Shown here piece after piece: positions 48,993-56,849 of a stretch of DNA of 64,000 nucleotides; within the stretch, counting starts at the first letter, position 1; each line of letters begins with the position of its first letter. The DNA comes from Kineosporia sp. NBRC 101731 (GTDB lineage: Bacteria > Actinomycetota > Actinomycetes > Actinomycetales > Kineosporiaceae). Below the pieces are notes generated by a model. It searched no databases, was not told the DNA's origin, and was given only the letters and a program-made list of their open reading frames with translations. Where the stretch lies: NCBI RefSeq assembly GCF_030269305.1, contig NZ_BSTC01000008.1:248001-312000 (forward strand). The letters run 5' to 3'. The position numbers were made by a program, and so were the translations under genes.

Positions 48993-49685
48993 TCACCCGC
49001 GGGCGGGCACCTTCATCTTCACGTGTCCACAGTCTCCGGCCAAGAGCTTCGTCAGTGCGCGCTTCTCGGCGGTGTCGATACTCAGTTTCCACCGGTACTT
49101 GATCGCGACCCACTGTCGGGCATACGTGCAGCGACTCTTGGCCGGCAGCCACTCGGCGGGGTCCTGGTCAACCTTGTCCTGATTGACGCTGCGGGTGACC
49201 GGCTTGAGTGTCCAGGTGTAGCCGAGGTCGTTGGCGTAGCGGAGGCGCTTTTTCTTCTTCCACTTCGAGGCGCCGGACTTCCAGGCCTCACTGAGGGCGA
49301 CCACGTGGTCGATCTCCAGCTTCTGGGCATCGGTCCAGGTGCGGCCGTCATAGGGCGACGTCCACTTCCCGGTGAGCACGGCGCACCGGCTGGCGGAGTA
49401 GAAGGTGACCTTGACCTGGGAGTCCCGCTGCATGACCTCGGAGCGGGTGTCCTGGCAGTCCTTGTCCACGTCCAGCCAGTCCTTCCCGAACTTGTCCCGC
49501 TCGTAGCCGCCGCGGTGTTCGGCCCTCACCGTGAGTTTGCCCAGCAGCGCCTTGCCCGTGGTGGTGCGGGCGGCAGCGGTCGGCGATGTCTGTGCCTCGC
49601 TACGCGCCTGGGCCGGACCCGCGCCGATCGACGAAGACAGAAGGACGGCCGCCAGACCGAGGACGACGGAAACGGGGCGACGCAC
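48993..49685 (-). CDS. secreted HNH endonuclease family protein (DUF1524-like)
   Basis: 230-aa exported nuclease. Signal peptide RRPVSVVLGLAAVLLSSSIGAGPAQA with an AQA site. The nuclease core has LEIDHVVALSEAWKSGASKW (the HNH first His), ANDLGYTWTLKPVTRSVNQDKVDQDPAEWLP (Asn/Lys) and CTYARQWVAIKYRWKLSID. Probably degrades extracellular DNA for nutrients or competition. GTG 49685 has GGAAGG 7 nt upstream. Confidence 0.87.
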   Translation of the reverse strand: MRRPVSVVLGLAAVLLSSSIGAGPAQARSEAQTSPTAAARTTTGKALLGKLTVRAEHRGGYERDKFGKDWLDVDKDCQDTRSEVMQRDSQVKVTFYSASRCAVLTGKWTSPYDGRTWTDAQKLEIDHVVALSEAWKSGASKWKKKKRLRYANDLGYTWTLKPVTRSVNQDKVDQDPAEWLPAKSRCTYARQWVAIKYRWKLSIDTAEKRALTKLLAGDCGHVKMKVPARG

Positions 49686-49912
49686 GGAGAGACCTTCCGG
49701 GACGTTGAACGGCACCGGCTGGTGCACGCCTCATGATGACCGAGTCGGGGCCGCGCCGGAGTGCATTCCGGGGCACGAATCTATGGGCGACCGGAATCTT
49801 GTCGAAGGTGTCAGACCGACTGTCGCATCAAGCTGGGCCGACGGGGTGGAGGATGCCCGTGCACGAGACTGCTGCGCGCCTCAGGGAGCGAACGTCGTGG
49901 TAGCCATGTCTG

Positions 49913-50422
49913 GTGGCGATCGTTCAGCAACTCGCGCGGCCGACGATGGATCAGCTTGGTCGCTGTCGGGAGTCCGTGGAGGAACTGCATCGGCTCTGTT
50001 CCTTCGAGATGCTTCCGGCAGGTGATCATTTGGACCTGGATTGGGCCCCTGACCCGCTCATGCGTCTTGGACGGCTGACGTCGATCACGGCGGCGGCCGA
50101 AGCCGCGATCAGCAAAGCGCTGTCGGACAGCATCGAAGTCAATCCTGCTTACCGGGAGCATCAAGACACCATCTGGGGCCACCCCGTCACCTACCTCGAG
50201 CAAGATGACGTGGCCGAGGTCGCCTCTGGACTGGCTGCGATCGATGCGCCTGCGGTCATTGGTGGATTGCCCCGCTGGAATCGACGAATCAACTCGCGAT
50301 TGTTCGACGGTCAGAAGGCGTCCGACCCCAAGCACTATCTCCTACAGCACCTGGCCGCGCTTCGAACGTTCTACTCAGAGGCAGCGCAAGCGGGTCGTGC
50401 TGTCGTGCTCTGGTGGGACTGA
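49913..50422 (+). CDS. DUF1877 (YfbM-like) family protein
   Basis: 169-aa soluble protein. The pattern HLDLDWAPDPLMRL in the middle, GHPVTYLEQDDVAEVASGLAAID, and C-terminal YLLQHLAALRTFYSEAAQAGRAVVLWWD match the layout of YfbM-type proteins of unknown function. GTG start at 49913 is the first in the frame; the RBS is weak, so the start is uncertain. Confidence 0.65.
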   Translation: MAIVQQLARPTMDQLGRCRESVEELHRLCSFEMLPAGDHLDLDWAPDPLMRLGRLTSITAAAEAAISKALSDSIEVNPAYREHQDTIWGHPVTYLEQDDVAEVASGLAAIDAPAVIGGLPRWNRRINSRLFDGQKASDPKHYLLQHLAALRTFYSEAAQAGRAVVLWWD

Positions 50423-50568: not shown

Positions 50569-50627
50569 TAATTGGAGTGAAGAGGTAAAAGAACTGGTCA
50601 GGGCCTGAATAAGGCGTCTGACCGGGG

Positions 50628-50700
50628 TGCCCCCGAGAGGATTCGAACCTCCGACACACGGTTTAGGAAACCGATGCTCTATCCCCTGAGCTACGAGGGC
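50628..50700 (-). tRNA. tRNA-Arg (anticodon CCT)
   Basis: 73-nt cloverleaf on the minus strand: acceptor GCCCTCG/CGGGGGC, D-arm GCTC..GAGC, anticodon loop TTCCTAA (CCT), T-arm GGAGG-TTCGAAT-CCTCT, discriminator A. CCA is not encoded. One T-T mismatch closes the anticodon stem. Confidence 0.95.
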
Positions 50701-50965: not shown

Positions 50966-51067
50966 GTGCAGCACGAAGCGCAGGCGAGGGTTACTTCTGG
51001 CTCTCTGGGTTCGATTCCTGGCGGTGGCTCCGGCCACTGTGTACCCTCGCCGACCCGGATCTCGTGC
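50966..51067 (+). ncRNA. putative Y RNA 1 (Ro60-associated, T-arm-bearing)
   Basis: Terminal helix GCACGA (50971-50976) with TCGTGC (51062-51067). An internal loop AGCGCA / GACCCGGATC follows, then a helix GGCGAGGGT (50983-50991) with ACCCTCGCC (51043-51051). Inside is a tRNA T-arm-like hairpin around GGGTTCGATTCC (51007-51018) and a CGGTGGC-TCCG-GCCACTG hairpin. The internal loop is shared with the RNA at 51068, while the helices differ by compensatory changes. A weak promoter (TTGCCG at 50934, 17 bp, AAATAG) would start the RNA near 50966. Strand inferred from the tRNA-like arm. Confidence 0.7.
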
Positions 51068-51222
51068 CCACAACTGAATTCCGAAGCGTAGACGCGGGTT
51101 ACTTCGACTCCTAATCGGCGGGTTGCGGGTTCAAGTCCCGTCGCCGGAACTCGATCCGGCGTAGCTCAATTGGCAGAGCAGCATGTTCCTTCGTCGCCTT
51201 GGATCTCGGAATTCAGCAGTGG
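51068..51222 (+). ncRNA. putative Y RNA 2 (YrlA-like) with circularly permuted tRNA module
   Basis: Terminal helices: CCAC (51068) with GTGG (51219), then CTGAATTCCGA (51074-51084) with TCGGAATTCAG (51206-51216). Internal loop AGCGTA / GCCTTGGATC, then GACG/CGTC. The distal part is a tRNA in permuted order. It comprises an anticodon-like arm (51103-51118, loop CTCCTAA), T-arm GCGGG-TTCAAGT-CCCGT (51125-51141), and 3' acceptor CGCCGGA (51142-51148). A 6-nt loop leads to 5' acceptor TCCGGCG (51155-51161), then TA and D-arm GCTC..GAGC (51164-51179). The two acceptor strands pair perfectly. This is the architecture described for YrlA RNAs bound by bacterial Ro60. Confidence 0.8.
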
Positions 51223-51260
51223 TCGGGAAGGGTCAGTACTGGTCGGGAAAGGGTCAGTAC
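51220..51260. repeat. 20-21 bp tandem duplication at the synthetase 3' end
   Basis: Two consecutive copies of TGGTCGGGAA(A)GGGTCAGTAC. The second copy contains the stop codon of the minus-strand synthetase gene; the first abuts the Y RNA 2 end. Confidence 0.8.
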
Positions 51261-53863
51261 TGGTCCGGCCAGGCCTTGCTGGGGCGGATCAGGTGCGGTC
51301 GGCTGCCCTCCCGGGGTCGCCGCGGCGTGCGCGACCGCCGTTGCTGAGCCGGTTCCAGCTGGCTCCAGATCACCTCGGCGGTCTTGCGGGCGTACGGGTC
51401 GCGCAGGATGGACATGTGGTCGCCGGGTACGTGGGTGAGGCGCCAGGTGCCGGTCAGGTACGGGGTCCAGGAGCGGCGCACGGCCTTCTTCTCGCTGTCC
51501 GCCGCCACGATCACCAGGGTCTCGCCGTCGTAAGGCTTTCCCCGGTAGCGCAGGTGCAGGAAATTACTCTGCCGCCAGAAGCGCCAGTACTGGTCGTCGG
51601 TGGCGCCGCGCAGGCCGGTGGTGGCCACGCCGATGGCCGCGCGCAGCTTCTCCACGGCTGAACCCTCCAGCGGGACGTGGGATTTCCCGTCCGGCGGGAA
51701 CGAGTCGATGACGACCAGGAGAGCTACCTCCTGACCAGCCTCCCGGAGCCGGCGGGCCACCTCGAGTGAGAGCACGCCACCGAACGAGTGTCCACCGATG
51801 AAGTACGGGCCGGCCGGCTGCACCGCGCGCAGGGTCTTGATGTGGCGCCGGGCCGCGGATTCCACGCTCCAGTCGGGAAGGCCCCGGGCCTCCAGGCCGT
51901 GCGCCTGGAGGGCGAACACCGGCTGGTCGTCCGGGAGATGGCGGACGAGCGGCACCAGGGTGACGCCGAGCCCGCCGCCACCGGTGAAGAGGAACAAGGG
52001 TGGACGAGATCCGTTGGCCCGCAAGGGGACGAGGGTCTGGTGGGCGGCGTCGGTCGTGCGCACGACGCGCTCGGCGAACTGCCGCAGTGTGGGCGCCTGC
52101 ACCAGCACGGTGGTCTGGGCGTCGCTCGCCGGCACCCCGAGCTCCGAGGTCATCCGGCTCATCAGGCTCTCGGCGGCCAGGGAGTCACCGCCGAGCTCGA
52201 AGAAGTCGTCTTCCAGGCCGACCTCGGGCAGCGTCAGCACACTGCACCACAGCGCCCGCACGACCTCTTCCCATTCGCTCAGGTTCTCGGTGCCCCGGCC
52301 GGCTGTGACCACGGGCGGTTCGGGCAGCGCGGCGCGGTCCAGCTTGCCGCGGTCGGTGCGGGGCAGGGCCTCCAGGAAGACGATGGCCTCGGGCACCATC
52401 CACGAGGGCAGCACCCCGGCCAGGTACTGCCGGGCCACGGCCGCGCTGGGGCGGTCGGCGCTGGTCACGATGTAGGAGATGAGGCGTTTGCCCTCGTTCT
52501 CCCCACCCTTGGACGCGCCGATGGTGATCGACTCGCGGACCTCGGGCAGGGCCGACAGCGCGGCGTCCACGTCACCGGGCTCGACCAGGTAACCGCGGAT
52601 CTTCACGCTGTGGTCGCGCCGCCCGAGCAGGCGCAGCGCTCCGTCCGGGCCGATCGTGCCGACGTCGTTGCTGCGGAACGTGCGGGCCCCATCACCGGCC
52701 GGGGTGAACGCCTGGCTGGCCTTTTCGTCACCCAGGTACTCCAGTGCCAGGTTGAGTCCGGTCAGGGTGACCGTGCCGGAACCGCCGGGAGGCACCGGGG
52801 TGCCCTCCTCGTCCACAATTCCGATCTCGATGTCCGGCATCGGCATCCCGACGGGCAGTGCGCCGGTCAGCACCGGATGCGTAGGAGCGACCGGATAGTC
52901 GGTGCAGTAACCAGTTTCGGACGAACCGAACCGGTTGCGCAGCTCGCAGGTATCGGGCAGCAGGGCCCGGGCGGCCTCGAGATCGGGCCCGTAGGCGGCC
53001 TCACCGGCGAACGTCACCGACCGCAGTCCGCCGAGCAGTTCCGGGTCCGGCCCGCTGTTCACCAGGTTCCGCAGGATCGCCGGGCTGGCCTGCATGATCG
53101 TCACGTGGTTCTGGTGGATCCAGGCCGGCAGGTCGCGGATGCCACGGCCCCGGATGTCGTACATCGCCGTGGTGGTGCCGACCAGAACGCCTGCGACGGC
53201 AGCCATCAGCCCGGCGTAGAACGCCATCGGCAGGGCATTCGCGACCACGTCGTCGGCGTCGTAACAGTCGGTCGCCCGGGCGACCGCCCAGGCCTCCCGC
53301 ACGAGCATCCGGTCGTCGTGCACCACTACTTGGGGACGCCCGGTGGAACCGGAGGTGAGGGCGTAGACGACGCGGTCGGTGGGTGCCGGGGCCAGCGTCC
53401 AGAGCTCCTCCAGATCGGCCTCGGTTCCTGGGTTCTCGCCGGAGGTGTCGACGATGACCCGGCCTACCAGCCCGGCCGCGGTCTCGGCGTTGGCCGGGTC
53501 GGTGAGACAGATCCGGGCGTCGACCCGTTCCACGAACGCGCGCAGCCGGGCCGGGGGAGTGCGCGGGTCGAGCACCAGGATCGGGCGGCCGGACGTGAGC
53601 CCGGCCCACAGTCCCGCGACAGCGGCCGCGCCGTGCGCGTACAACAGTGCCACGGGCTGTTGCGGCGGGGTTCCGACCACGGCGGCCGCCACCTGGTGCC
53701 GGAGGGCGGCGGTGCGCCGGGCGAATTGGCCGTAGGTGAGGCTCAGGTCGTCGTCGTGCACGGCCACCTCGTCGGGCAGCGCGGTGACCACCTGCCGCAA
53801 CCGGGCCACGCTGCCCGCCTCGATGTCCCGGTATCTCAGCGGTTCGACCGTCCGCGTGGTCAT
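51254..53863 (-). CDS. stand-alone NRPS-like A-PCP-TE synthetase
   Basis: 869-aa single-module synthetase without a condensation domain. Adenylation domain (~15-500): A3 YALTSGSTGRPQ, A5 NRFGSSETGYCTDYP, A7 RSNDVGTIGPDGALRLLGRRDHSVKIRGYLVEPGDVD, A10 PRTDRGKLDR with the catalytic Lys. Carrier protein (~535-600) with LGGDSLAAESLMSR. Type I thioesterase (~620-840) with GGHSFGG and a late PGDHMSIL His. The A4 region reads FYAG, not the FDxS of amino-acid-activating domains, so the substrate may be a keto or aryl acid. A-T-TE enzymes of that kind make quinones or furanones. No other biosynthetic genes lie beside it. Confidence 0.88.
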   Translation of the reverse strand: MTTRTVEPLRYRDIEAGSVARLRQVVTALPDEVAVHDDDLSLTYGQFARRTAALRHQVAAAVVGTPPQQPVALLYAHGAAAVAGLWAGLTSGRPILVLDPRTPPARLRAFVERVDARICLTDPANAETAAGLVGRVIVDTSGENPGTEADLEELWTLAPAPTDRVVYALTSGSTGRPQVVVHDDRMLVREAWAVARATDCYDADDVVANALPMAFYAGLMAAVAGVLVGTTTAMYDIRGRGIRDLPAWIHQNHVTIMQASPAILRNLVNSGPDPELLGGLRSVTFAGEAAYGPDLEAARALLPDTCELRNRFGSSETGYCTDYPVAPTHPVLTGALPVGMPMPDIEIGIVDEEGTPVPPGGSGTVTLTGLNLALEYLGDEKASQAFTPAGDGARTFRSNDVGTIGPDGALRLLGRRDHSVKIRGYLVEPGDVDAALSALPEVRESITIGASKGGENEGKRLISYIVTSADRPSAAVARQYLAGVLPSWMVPEAIVFLEALPRTDRGKLDRAALPEPPVVTAGRGTENLSEWEEVVRALWCSVLTLPEVGLEDDFFELGGDSLAAESLMSRMTSELGVPASDAQTTVLVQAPTLRQFAERVVRTTDAAHQTLVPLRANGSRPPLFLFTGGGGLGVTLVPLVRHLPDDQPVFALQAHGLEARGLPDWSVESAARRHIKTLRAVQPAGPYFIGGHSFGGVLSLEVARRLREAGQEVALLVVIDSFPPDGKSHVPLEGSAVEKLRAAIGVATTGLRGATDDQYWRFWRQSNFLHLRYRGKPYDGETLVIVAADSEKKAVRRSWTPYLTGTWRLTHVPGDHMSILRDPYARKTAEVIWSQLEPAQQRRSRTPRRPREGSRPHLIRPSKAWPDQY

Positions 53864-54178
53864 CTCAGCCCTTCCTAGGCCCACACCACGCAGAACGTGC
53901 GTGAAAGTTCTTATCCGTTGAGCCCCATGGTAGGCGCGGGACTTGGGCGGAATCTGGGAACAGGTGAAAACACCTGCCGCGTGGGCGGTCGTCATGCGCC
54001 AATGGTCCGTTGGGTGCGGATCGCATGTCCGTCGGACGGACCAACCTCTGGGGGAAGTCACAGCCGCCGCGCGACGGGATTCATAAATCAGTTGTTCTCC
54101 CCGGCGTCGTTTTGGGACGGTACTGGCGCGCGAGGTCCGGATGATCCGGACGCGCCCACGTGATGTAGAGGGACGATC
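53864..54178. promoter_or_regulatory. divergent control region of the synthetase and TROVE genes
   Basis: 315-bp gap. It holds GTCCGTC-G-GACGGAC (54027-54041), whose right half can also pair with TGGTCCGT at 54003-54010, and GTCCGGAT-G-ATCCGGAC (54135-54151) centred 36 bp before the TROVE start. Both are perfect odd-length palindromes and candidate operators. No gene is seen. Confidence 0.45.
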
Positions 54179-55759
54179 ATGGGAAAGTTCTCGATCAGGA
54201 GTGCCGGCCGGGCCGCAGTGGCCTCGCCGGTGAAGAGTGACGGCCGCCGCGGCGCCACGCACGAGGGTGGGCGGGGGTACGGGCGCGACGCCAAGTCGGA
54301 GCTCTATCTGCTGGCCGTCACCAACATGGTCTCCGAGAACACTTTCTACGAGGCCGCTTCGGATCGGGACCAGCGTTTCCGCGCCCTGGTCCACGCCGTC
54401 ACCCTCGAAGATCCCAGCTGGATAGCGCGTTTCGTGCCCTACCTGCGGGACGGGATGAACCTGCGCTCGGCGTCGGTGGTGATGGCGGCCGAGTACGCGC
54501 TGGCCCTGCGGGGGGCCCCGGAATCGACCCGGGCCCAGGCACCTTCGGTGCGAACGGTGATCGGTGCGGCGCTGCGGCGAACGGACGAGCCGGGCGAGTT
54601 CATCGGGTACTGGAAGTTGCGTACGGGTAAGGTGACGCTGCCCGGCGGTGTGCAGCGAGGCGTGGGTGATGCTGTCGCACGGCTTTTCTCGGAGTACGGC
54701 GCGCTCAAGTACGACGGGCGCAGCCACGGTGTGCGGCTCGGCGACGTCATCGAGCTGACCCATCCGCGGGCGGGCAGTGCGGCGCAGGGTGACCTGTACA
54801 CGTACCTGCTCGACCGGCGTCATCACCCCGACGAGGTCCGCGCCGGCCTCGGACGGCTACCGATGATCACGGCGAACCGCGCGCTCGACGAGATGCCGCA
54901 GGAGCAGCGTGCGGCGTTCCTGCGGGAGCCGGGTGCGCCCGCGCGGCTCACGGAGGCGGGCTTCACCTGGGAAGAGCTGTCCGGCTGGCTGAACGGGCCG
55001 ATGGACGCGGCGGCCTGGGGCGCGGTGCTGCCGTCGATGGGCTTCATGGCCCGGTTGCGGAACCTGCGGAACTTCGACAAGGCAGGACTGACCGACGCCG
55101 CAGTGGCCCCGGTCATCGCCATGCTCAGCGATCCGGTGAAGGTGGCGCGTTCCCGGCAGTTCCCCTTCCGGTTCCTGGCCGCGTACCGGGCCGCACCGTC
55201 GCTGCGGTGGGCCTACCCGCTGGAGCAGGCGGTGAACCACAGCCTGGCCGCCGTGCCGTCCCTGCCGGGGCGCACGCTGATCCTCATCGACCGGTCCGGC
55301 TCGATGTGGGCGCCGCTGTCGGCCCGCTCCGACCTGAACCGGGCCGACGCCGCCGCGATCTTCGGCACGGCCCTGGCGGCCCGGGCACAGGATGCGACGC
55401 TCGTGCAGTTCGGCACGACCAGCCAGGTCGTGGCCCGGAAGAAGGGGGAGTCGGTGATGAAGGTGCTCGACCGGTTCGGTGACCTGGGTGGCACCAACAC
55501 CGCCAGTGCCCTGCGGGAGCGCTACGCCCAGCACGACCGGGTCGTCATCGTGACCGACGAGCAGGTGAGCCAGGGCCAGAACGTCGACGCGGCCGTTCCG
55601 CCCCAGGTTCCGCTCTACACCTGGAACCTGGCCGGTTACCAGGCGGGACACACCCCGTCGGGCCACGCGAACCGCCACACCTTCGGCGGGCTGACCGACG
55701 CCGCTTTCCGGATGATTCCCCTGATCGAGGCGGGAAAGTCCGCGGACTGGCCGTTCTGA
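54179..55759 (+). CDS. rsr: TROVE-domain protein, bacterial Ro60 (Rsr)
   Basis: 526-aa Ro60 orthologue. TROVE ring (~20-330: GRDAKSELYLLAVTNMVSENTFYEAASDRDQRFRALV; RFVPYLRDGMNLRSASVVMAAEYA; FIGYWKLRTGKVTLPGGVQRGVGDA; YDGRSHGVRLGDVIELTHP; LRNLRNFDKAG). The C-terminal vWA domain has MIDAS residues D371-x-S-x-S in LILIDRSGSMW and VIVTDEQ. Ro60 binds Y RNAs and misfolded RNA, and in Deinococcus works with PNPase after stress. ATG 54179 follows AGAGGGA. Two Y-like RNAs lie ~3 kb upstream on the same strand. Confidence 0.93.
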   Translation: MGKFSIRSAGRAAVASPVKSDGRRGATHEGGRGYGRDAKSELYLLAVTNMVSENTFYEAASDRDQRFRALVHAVTLEDPSWIARFVPYLRDGMNLRSASVVMAAEYALALRGAPESTRAQAPSVRTVIGAALRRTDEPGEFIGYWKLRTGKVTLPGGVQRGVGDAVARLFSEYGALKYDGRSHGVRLGDVIELTHPRAGSAAQGDLYTYLLDRRHHPDEVRAGLGRLPMITANRALDEMPQEQRAAFLREPGAPARLTEAGFTWEELSGWLNGPMDAAAWGAVLPSMGFMARLRNLRNFDKAGLTDAAVAPVIAMLSDPVKVARSRQFPFRFLAAYRAAPSLRWAYPLEQAVNHSLAAVPSLPGRTLILIDRSGSMWAPLSARSDLNRADAAAIFGTALAARAQDATLVQFGTTSQVVARKKGESVMKVLDRFGDLGGTNTASALRERYAQHDRVVIVTDEQVSQGQNVDAAVPPQVPLYTWNLAGYQAGHTPSGHANRHTFGGLTDAAFRMIPLIEAGKSADWPF

Positions 55760-56291: not shown

Positions 56292-56849
56292 ATGCGCACC
56301 AACAAGTTCATCGTTGCCCTGGCCGTTCTCGTGCTCACCGGATGTGCCGGTACGAGCACCTCGACCGCCGATCACACCCGCGCCGACGTGACGTTCGCGA
56401 CCGGCATGATTCCGCATCACGGCCAGGCTCTCACGATGGCCGACCTGGCCCTGGACAAGGCCGAGAGCCCGCAGGTCAGAAAACTGGCCGAAGAGATCAA
56501 GGCCGCCCAGGACCCCGAGATCGTGCAGATGTCAGGTCTTCTCAAGGGATGGAATCAGCCCGTCCCGACGGTCACGGGTCACGTCCACGACATGGTGGGA
56601 ATGAGTCACCAGGGTTCCGGCATGATGACCGCCGCCCAGATGATCGAACTGGAGAACGCGAAAGGCGCCACGTTCGACCGGGAGTGGACAGAAATGATGA
56701 TCCAGCACCACCAGGGCGCGGTGGCCATGTCCGAGACCGTGCTCGACGAGGGCAGTAGCCCCGCGATCGAGACCCTCGCCGGGGCGATCATCCAGGGCCA
56801 GACCGCCGAGATCGACGCCATGCAGGCTCTGCTGGAAAAGTCTCTGTAG
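56292..56849 (+). CDS. DUF305 lipoprotein
   Basis: 185-aa exported protein. Lipoprotein signal RTNKFIVALAVLVLTGCAG (Cys18 lipobox). Two DUF305 half-repeats, each with the family motif: FATGMIPHHGQALTMADLAL and MMIQHHQGAVAMSETVL. Met/His-rich stretches (HVHDMVGMSHQGSGMMTAAQM) suggest copper binding. Followed by a strong hairpin. Confidence 0.9.
   Translation: MRTNKFIVALAVLVLTGCAGTSTSTADHTRADVTFATGMIPHHGQALTMADLALDKAESPQVRKLAEEIKAAQDPEIVQMSGLLKGWNQPVPTVTGHVHDMVGMSHQGSGMMTAAQMIELENAKGATFDREWTEMMIQHHQGAVAMSETVLDEGSSPAIETLAGAIIQGQTAEIDAMQALLEKSL

Follow-up and report, generated by a model that had tools for sequence, protein, structure and literature searches.

A putative YrlA-type Y RNA near a Ro60 homologue in Kineosporia, with a circularly permuted tRNA module and an anticodon-like arm

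How far does the tRNA mimicry of a bacterial Y RNA extend, and what would an anticodon-like arm be kept for in such an RNA? These questions arise from positions 51068-51222 of the window (the whole 64,000-nucleotide stretch analysed here, part of contig 8 of the 8.26-Mb genome of Kineosporia sp. NBRC 101731). According to the available portions of the papers cited here, YrlA comprises a basal stem that tethers Rsr and a domain resembling the D-, T- and acceptor arms of tRNA; this domain is a substrate of DusA and TruB and binds PNPase (PMC8394870), and it might inhibit an anticodon nuclease (PMC7790460). Y RNA and tRNA superpose under circular permutation (PMC11472068), and the structure of Salmonella YrlA is 6CU1 (cited in PMC8394870 and PMC11472068). 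YrlA was already known to be permuted and linked to Ro60, and what the present analysis adds is the anticodon arm. The available text of PMC8394870, PMC7790460, PMC9569102 and PMC11472068 mentions neither an anticodon arm nor t6A in YrlA; the primary papers may already show it. Since the arm is absent from the Rfam model and from this description, we treat the RNA of the window as a YrlA variant. Judged from its sequence, 51068-51222 is very probably a bacterial Y RNA gene. Its product would be small and stable, with P1 and P2 helices that bind the Ro60 homologue (Rsr) and a module that is a complete, permuted tRNA mimic for an enzyme that reads the loop.

Architecture and Ro60 neighbourhood in Kineosporia

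The 5′ and 3′ ends of the RNA are joined by a long stem, P1, of 4 + 11 bp flanking an AA/CA internal loop, and D-, T- and acceptor-like arms follow one another within it in permuted order (Table 1). The first-pass annotation had described reversed tRNA halves inside a 4 + 11 bp terminal helix, and every part that it named was found in its place. A second basal helix, P2, is recovered in part by unsupervised RNAalifold on 26 sequences, and a conserved linker, UUAC, lies directly 3′ of its 5′ strand. The loop of the anticodon arm occupies 51108-51114; pair 27-43 is U-C in all three Kineosporia (the window and the two sister species K. babensis and K. rhizophila), which leaves 4 bp in their anticodon stem. 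The acceptor strands (51142-51148 and 51155-51161) are joined by a 6-nt loop (51149-51154), and the 21 nt at 51162-51182 are identical to the same genome's tRNA-Lys(CTT).

Table 1. Predicted features of the Y RNA locus, in coordinates of the window
Feature	Position	Strand	Basis or remark
Putative Y RNA, YrlA-type variant with anticodon arm	51068-51222	+	Sequence, fold, Rfam match, model R2, sister species
P1, 5′ strand of terminal helix, CCAC-AA-CUGAAUUCCGA	51068-51084	+	Sequence, fold, sister comparison
P2, 5′ strand, GACGCGGG	51091-51098	+	7 of 8 positions pair with 51188-51195
Anticodon arm, tRNA positions 27-43, UUCGA-CUCCUAA-UCGGC, triplet CCU	51103-51119	+	ARAGORN, geometry, covariation, R2
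Variable loop, positions 44-48, GGGUU	51120-51124	+	Pair 15-48 conserved
T-arm, GCGGG-UUCAAGU-CCCGU	51125-51141	+	Rfam match, arm pairing
Acceptor hairpin, CGCCGGA / loop ACUCGA / UCCGGCG	51142-51161	+	Sequence, Rfam match, arm pairing
D-arm, GCUC-AAUUGGCA-GAGC	51164-51179	+	Rfam match, identity to tRNA-Lys(CTT)
P2, 3′ strand, CCUUCGUC	51188-51195	+	Pairing with 51091-51098; RNAalifold
P1, 3′ strand, UCGGAAUUCAG-CA-GUGG	51206-51222	+	Sequence, fold, sister comparison
Second, smaller Y-like element	50971-51067	+	P1 GCACGA/UCUCGUGC, P2 GGCGAGGG/CCCUCGCC, T-arm-like hairpin, without D-arm
NRPS-like reading frame, AMP-binding + carrier + thioesterase domains	51254-54826	-	Between RNA and Ro60
Ro60 gene (TROVE / von Willebrand A), likely partner	54179-55759	+	Domain search

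For the smaller Y-like element upstream, our model R2 (described below) gives 17.9 bits (E 1.5e-4) over 50983-51069; at the corresponding site, both sister species have a shorter hairpin that includes no module. Scr5676 (RF02832) was tried on this element and set aside at 14.7 bits, the chance level. Two tandem Y-type elements beside Ro60 are likewise found at Salmonella rsr-yrlBA, as described in the available portion of PMC7790460, whereas no rtcBA adjoins the window's locus within the 44-58 kb stretch; the RtcB ligase genes (C23:62160-63272 and C7:170137-171147) lie on contigs other than that of Ro60.

In the Ro60 relative, TROVE scores 44.9 bits over aligned residues 263-338 only, and VWA_2 is barely above the cut-off. 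Of 13 family genomes, three encode a Ro60 relative of this kind, and these are the three that carry the RNA; among the five further genomes of the genus examined, the RNA was found again in two (K. babensis JCM 31032 and K. rhizophila JCM 9960). In these two species the terminal helix ends 19 nt short of the Ro60 start codon and the NRPS-like gene is missing from the interval, whereas 2,956 nt separate RNA and Ro60 in the window. The earlier placing of a Ro60 gene 3 kb away was correct as to the gene, but the distance is peculiar to the window, where the NRPS-like gene intervenes. As the permuted-module description would lead one to expect, both sister species retain the RNA and its terminal helix; in one 21-pair register P1 is fully paired in K. 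rhizophila (21 pairs), one pair short of this in K. babensis (20) and down to 17 pairs in the window, and 5 of the 21 pairs are changed on both strands among the three species.

Other neighbours include a GmrSD_C-domain protein (48993-49727, -) and DUF1877 and DUF305 proteins among 49913-50422 (+) and 56292-56849 (+). A direct repeat of ~20 nt at about 51219-51262 adjoins the end of the NRPS-like frame. A tRNA-Arg(CCT) gene (50626-50700, -), some 370 bp away from the Y RNA, shares its triplet with the anticodon-like loop; the stretches examined around the two sister loci contain no tRNA genes.

The 19-nt spacing in K. babensis and K. rhizophila would also suit a cis-acting leader of the Ro60 mRNA, in which the tRNA-like fold controls Ro60 expression. 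Such a role is compatible with a Y RNA gene, yet we consider it unlikely: almost 3 kb and an opposite-strand gene lie in between in the window, tandem elements are possible (locus L055, below), and published Y RNAs work in trans.

Fold and covariance models

The fold of 51068-51222 is more stable than most shuffled sequences (z-score -2.99; 3 of 200 shuffles equally good). The Rfam YrlA model, RF02553, matches the window at 51118-51182 with 35.5 bits (E 6.9e-6 for 901 nt searched), a match that spans model positions 24-84 only. A covariance search with Rfam YrlA thus finds the RNA, but below the gathering score of 69; at the gathering threshold, Rfam returns only tRNA-Arg over the window. RF02553 is above its cut-off in none of the 13 family genomes, and below it (E 0.01) in 11 of the 13; because 9 of 14 control genomes match at this level too, weak RF02553 matches were not used as evidence.

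Support also comes from model R2, built from 23 sequences with the three Kineosporia rows left out. Its score for the window is 84.6 bits (E 2e-28 in a search of 85.6 kb, the E-values of the search tool being rough), and together with the K. babensis and K. rhizophila RNAs the three species give 84.6, 89.6 and 79.3 bits. An alternative model, R1, gives 92-102 bits for the RNAs of the three Ro60-bearing family genomes, a result that follows by construction because R1 includes Kineosporia rows. Over the phylum, R1 matches 394 of 396 genomes at E 1e-6, and its E-values were set aside; tandem tRNA genes resemble this model, which makes it unfit as a census tool.

The unconstrained minimum-energy fold of the RNA differs from the cloverleaf and forms an alternative long hairpin. 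Forcing the tRNA-like arms and P2 costs 5.0 kcal/mol in the window, 5.0 in K. babensis and 3.3 in K. rhizophila, figures that concern secondary structure only, tertiary contacts being outside the model. The minimum-energy folds of all three Kineosporia lack the anticodon-like hairpin, and the T-, acceptor and D-parts suffice for the Rfam match. Both observations would agree with an ordinary Rfam-type YrlA, in which the hairpin arose by chance and the real fold differs at this place, as would the 39 of 72 related modules that lie outside the arm-bearing class described below. The RNA of the window and RF02553 do share a Ro60-linked gene, a basal stem, a permuted T-arm, a looped acceptor and a D-arm; the former differs in having an entire anticodon arm, spaced exactly as in tRNA, and in folding without the inner helix and closing stem of RF02553. 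That inner helix (model 13-19 / 89-95) consists mostly of non-pairs in the matches at L112 and L055 and is partly formed in L061, and instead of inner helix and closing stem, RNAalifold on 26 relatives shows the anticodon hairpin. Together with the geometry, covariation and loop data that follow, this makes a chance hairpin in an ordinary YrlA distinctly unlikely.

The anticodon-like arm in actinomycetes and phages

To place the arm among relatives of the RNA, we searched 394 genomes of the class for Ro60, finding relatives in 52, and scanned Ro60-upstream stretches and viral contigs (picked by Ro60 or by a T-arm/D-arm pattern) for a T-arm, a looped acceptor and a D-arm. This gave 72 permuted modules in 60 loci, at most 4 kb from a Ro60 reading frame and on the same strand; many come from one genus (g83), which we take to be Streptomyces-like, and the rows are non-independent. 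The initial description, which read from the letters a permuted tRNA module within a Y RNA-like transcript close to a Ro60 gene, is strengthened by these 60 loci and by the close spacing in the sister species.

The 72 modules were then tested for a hairpin in 35 combinations of loop (5-9) and variable loop (2-8). The tRNA geometry (loop 7, variable loop 5) gave three inner pairs in 34 of the 72 modules and at least four of five pairs in 31, an excess over the 0-14 modules of 33 other geometries; the remaining combination, loop 9 with variable loop 4 (27 of 72), is the same helix shifted one pair outward. The arm had been called unusual, which is true against the Rfam YrlA model and the published description as far as available, but not against Ro60-linked modules, nearly half of which have the exact-geometry hairpin. 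We labelled 33 modules as arm-bearing, a few of them doubtful (the first module of L112; L213, with a weak Ro60 match). The anticodon arm is evidently dispensable for some Y RNAs, as 39 of the 72 modules fall outside this class. Among 26 selected arm-bearing rows, the four arms are paired in 98.3% of cells, compared with 31-54% when slid; since the rows were chosen by pairing, the figure for helix 1 is partly circular and the geometry histogram is the fairer measure. In the anticodon stem of these selected rows, 2 of 5 pairs change on both sides, and unsupervised RNAalifold on the 26 rows returns the same arms.

At L055 (4960-5570; G008 C273), inspection by eye suggested a tandem array of four Y-like elements that precedes a Ro60 of more typical kind (vWA_Ro60 209 bits): two with T-, acceptor and D-arms, one with a T-arm only and one without any.

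The likeness to tRNA extends to the whole module. When the tRNA order is restored, the three Kineosporia modules each yield a full cloverleaf and are called tRNAs by ARAGORN, with triplets CCT, CTT and CCT. Compared with 34 tRNA sequences of the same genome (among 57 tRNA matches), the window module is nearest to tRNA-Lys(CTT), with 62 matching positions, followed by tRNA-Asn and a tRNA-Met. Of the 72 modules, 71 retain the tertiary pair 15-48 (A-U 30, G-C 41, A-C 1), which speaks for a tRNA-like L-fold.

Phages extended the comparison, with 87 records containing a Ro60 relative. In each of the four records examined, R2 finds a match shortly before Ro60 (82.2, 61.7, 50.3 and 47.9 bits). A first pattern, with U33, A37 and A38 fixed and 34-36 free, matched 49 viral contigs; 43 sites have T- and D-arms, and 40 a same-strand Ro60 frame. 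U36 is present in 48 of the 49, along with 13 different triplets, some with A34. In class genomes the pattern found 15 sites in 14 of 394 genomes, with U36 in 14; the count of genomes is a lower bound, because the exact pattern misses the window itself (stem ending UCGGC). Among CUNNNAA-loop tRNAs with the same stem pairs in the loci examined, U36 is found in 123 of 195, compared with 42 of 43 distinct Y RNA sites (Fisher 7.6e-7, kinship ignored).

Patterns that leave the loop free are a fairer test and superseded the one fixing A37 and A38. With the whole loop free, 139 distinct sites were found. T- and D-arms are present at 71 of them, 61 of which have Ro60; of the 68 sites that lack these arms, 4 have Ro60. 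The 71 modules keep U33 in 70, U36 in 54, A37 in 59 and A38 in 68, and have only 0.32 bits of information at position 34 and 0.12 at 35; the loop ends in UAA in 53 and in GGA in 10. The 68 sites without T- and D-arms have a flat profile (at most 0.22 bits). GGA at the same spacing (36-38) is also common in Ro60-linked modules without the paired arm.

A C-U-N-N-U-A-A loop, with U36-A37-A38, is the signal for t6A37, and G36-G37 that for m1G37. The window loop and the phage set fit the t6A37 rule of U33, U36, A37 and A38 in a 7-nt loop. Freedom at positions 34-35 argues against a decoding role, and the loop rule points to modification of position 37 or to loop-reading nucleases. These data suggest that, in the window RNA and its relatives in actinomycetes and phages, the anticodon arm is kept by selection and the anticodon itself is not.

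Some of these RNAs appear to be annotated as tRNAs. Gordonia phage VanLee (L381 1204-1275) has an annotated tRNA-Arg(tct) that overlaps a permuted Y RNA, and Streptomyces phage Alone3 (L380 1274-1347) carries a tRNA-Ser(gct) annotation that overlaps another, whose score is within the tandem-tRNA range, yet whose own acceptor strands pair. ARAGORN calls tRNAs in 10 of the 33 arm-bearing and 2 of the 39 other Ro60-linked modules, and at 18 of the 49 phage sites, so it was dropped as a filter against true tRNAs. On the strength of these overlaps and calls, the tRNA counts and anticodon inventories of these phages are partly wrong.

Permuted tRNA genes, origin and significance

The full cloverleaf in restored order raises the possibility of a circularly permuted tRNA gene, whose transcript would be cut and ligated into a working tRNA reading AGG. 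The available portion of PMC3978253 describes such genes in algae and archaea, which resemble the window in placing the 3′ half first and in a segment joining the acceptor ends, and RtcB is encoded at two places in the genome. However, the window differs in the Ro60-type stem around its module, in closed acceptor loops, in changing triplets and in having no signs of processing ends. Where such a gene would show a constant anticodon, a 7-bp acceptor and processable ends, the three sister species have CCT, CTT and CCT and phage triplets include A34, while over the 72 modules acceptor stems score 5-8 bp, UUCG-type loops close 11 and GNRA loops 6, and CCA starts the loop in only 9, which makes a mature tRNA unlikely. 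tRNA-Arg(CCT) and tRNA-Lys(CTT) are already present in the genome, and this reading leaves the terminal helix and the Ro60 linkage unexplained. We reject it as very improbable on account of the changing triplets, the acceptor lengths and the closed loops. Two-piece tmRNA, as described in the same available text (PMC3978253), is likewise a permuted RNA with tRNA-like parts; the window differs from it in its Ro60 linkage and anticodon arm, and a tag reading frame would not be expected.

The permutation of the proposed Y RNA may have originated at the junction of two tandem tRNA genes, because such a junction directly gives the order anticodon arm, T-arm, acceptor, spacer, acceptor, D-arm. Under R1, pairs of tandem tRNA-Asn genes reach 69.2-75.3 bits at the five loci examined, like some arm-less Y RNAs, and other tandem tRNAs about 60 bits or less among the matches listed. 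These five loci (L257-L261), in five genomes of genus g83, have spacers of about 4-5 nt, and the spacer loop GCUCGG at L257 resembles the ACUCGA loop of the window. That the module is itself a functionless remnant of tandem tRNA genes is scarcely credible even though tandem tRNA-Asn junctions fit the model, given the absence of flanking half-tRNAs, the compensation within P1 in three species and the recurrent Ro60 linkage.

In the Y RNA reading, the module would represent a complete tRNA opened between the D-arm and the anticodon arm, with its acceptor ends looped. By analogy with YrlA, P1 and P2 would hold Ro60 with the module facing outward, and the tether to Rsr, PNPase binding and modification by DusA and TruB may carry over to the RNA of the window. 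The anticodon arm would complete the mimicry for tRNA enzymes, and its loop may be kept for recognition by an anticodon-loop enzyme, most simply the t6A37 machinery.

Beyond this locus, we tentatively propose, at somewhat less than even confidence, that a large subclass of Ro60-linked Y RNAs, common to actinomycetes and their phages, comprises full-length tRNA mimics whose loop is selected for position-37 recognition (U36-A37-A38 for t6A, and in a minority G36-G37 for m1G37) and not for decoding. Tethered to Ro60, they may act as non-tRNA substrates or decoys of essential modifying enzymes, or as bait for anticodon nucleases. Rfam and the published description, in its available portions, grant YrlA only D-, T- and acceptor arms, and a tandem-tRNA junction would be a simple source of the permutation. 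With its free triplet and fixed positions 36-37-38, the arm-bearing subclass offers a direct way to test what tRNA mimicry serves in Y RNAs: is the loop modified, and by whom is it bound?
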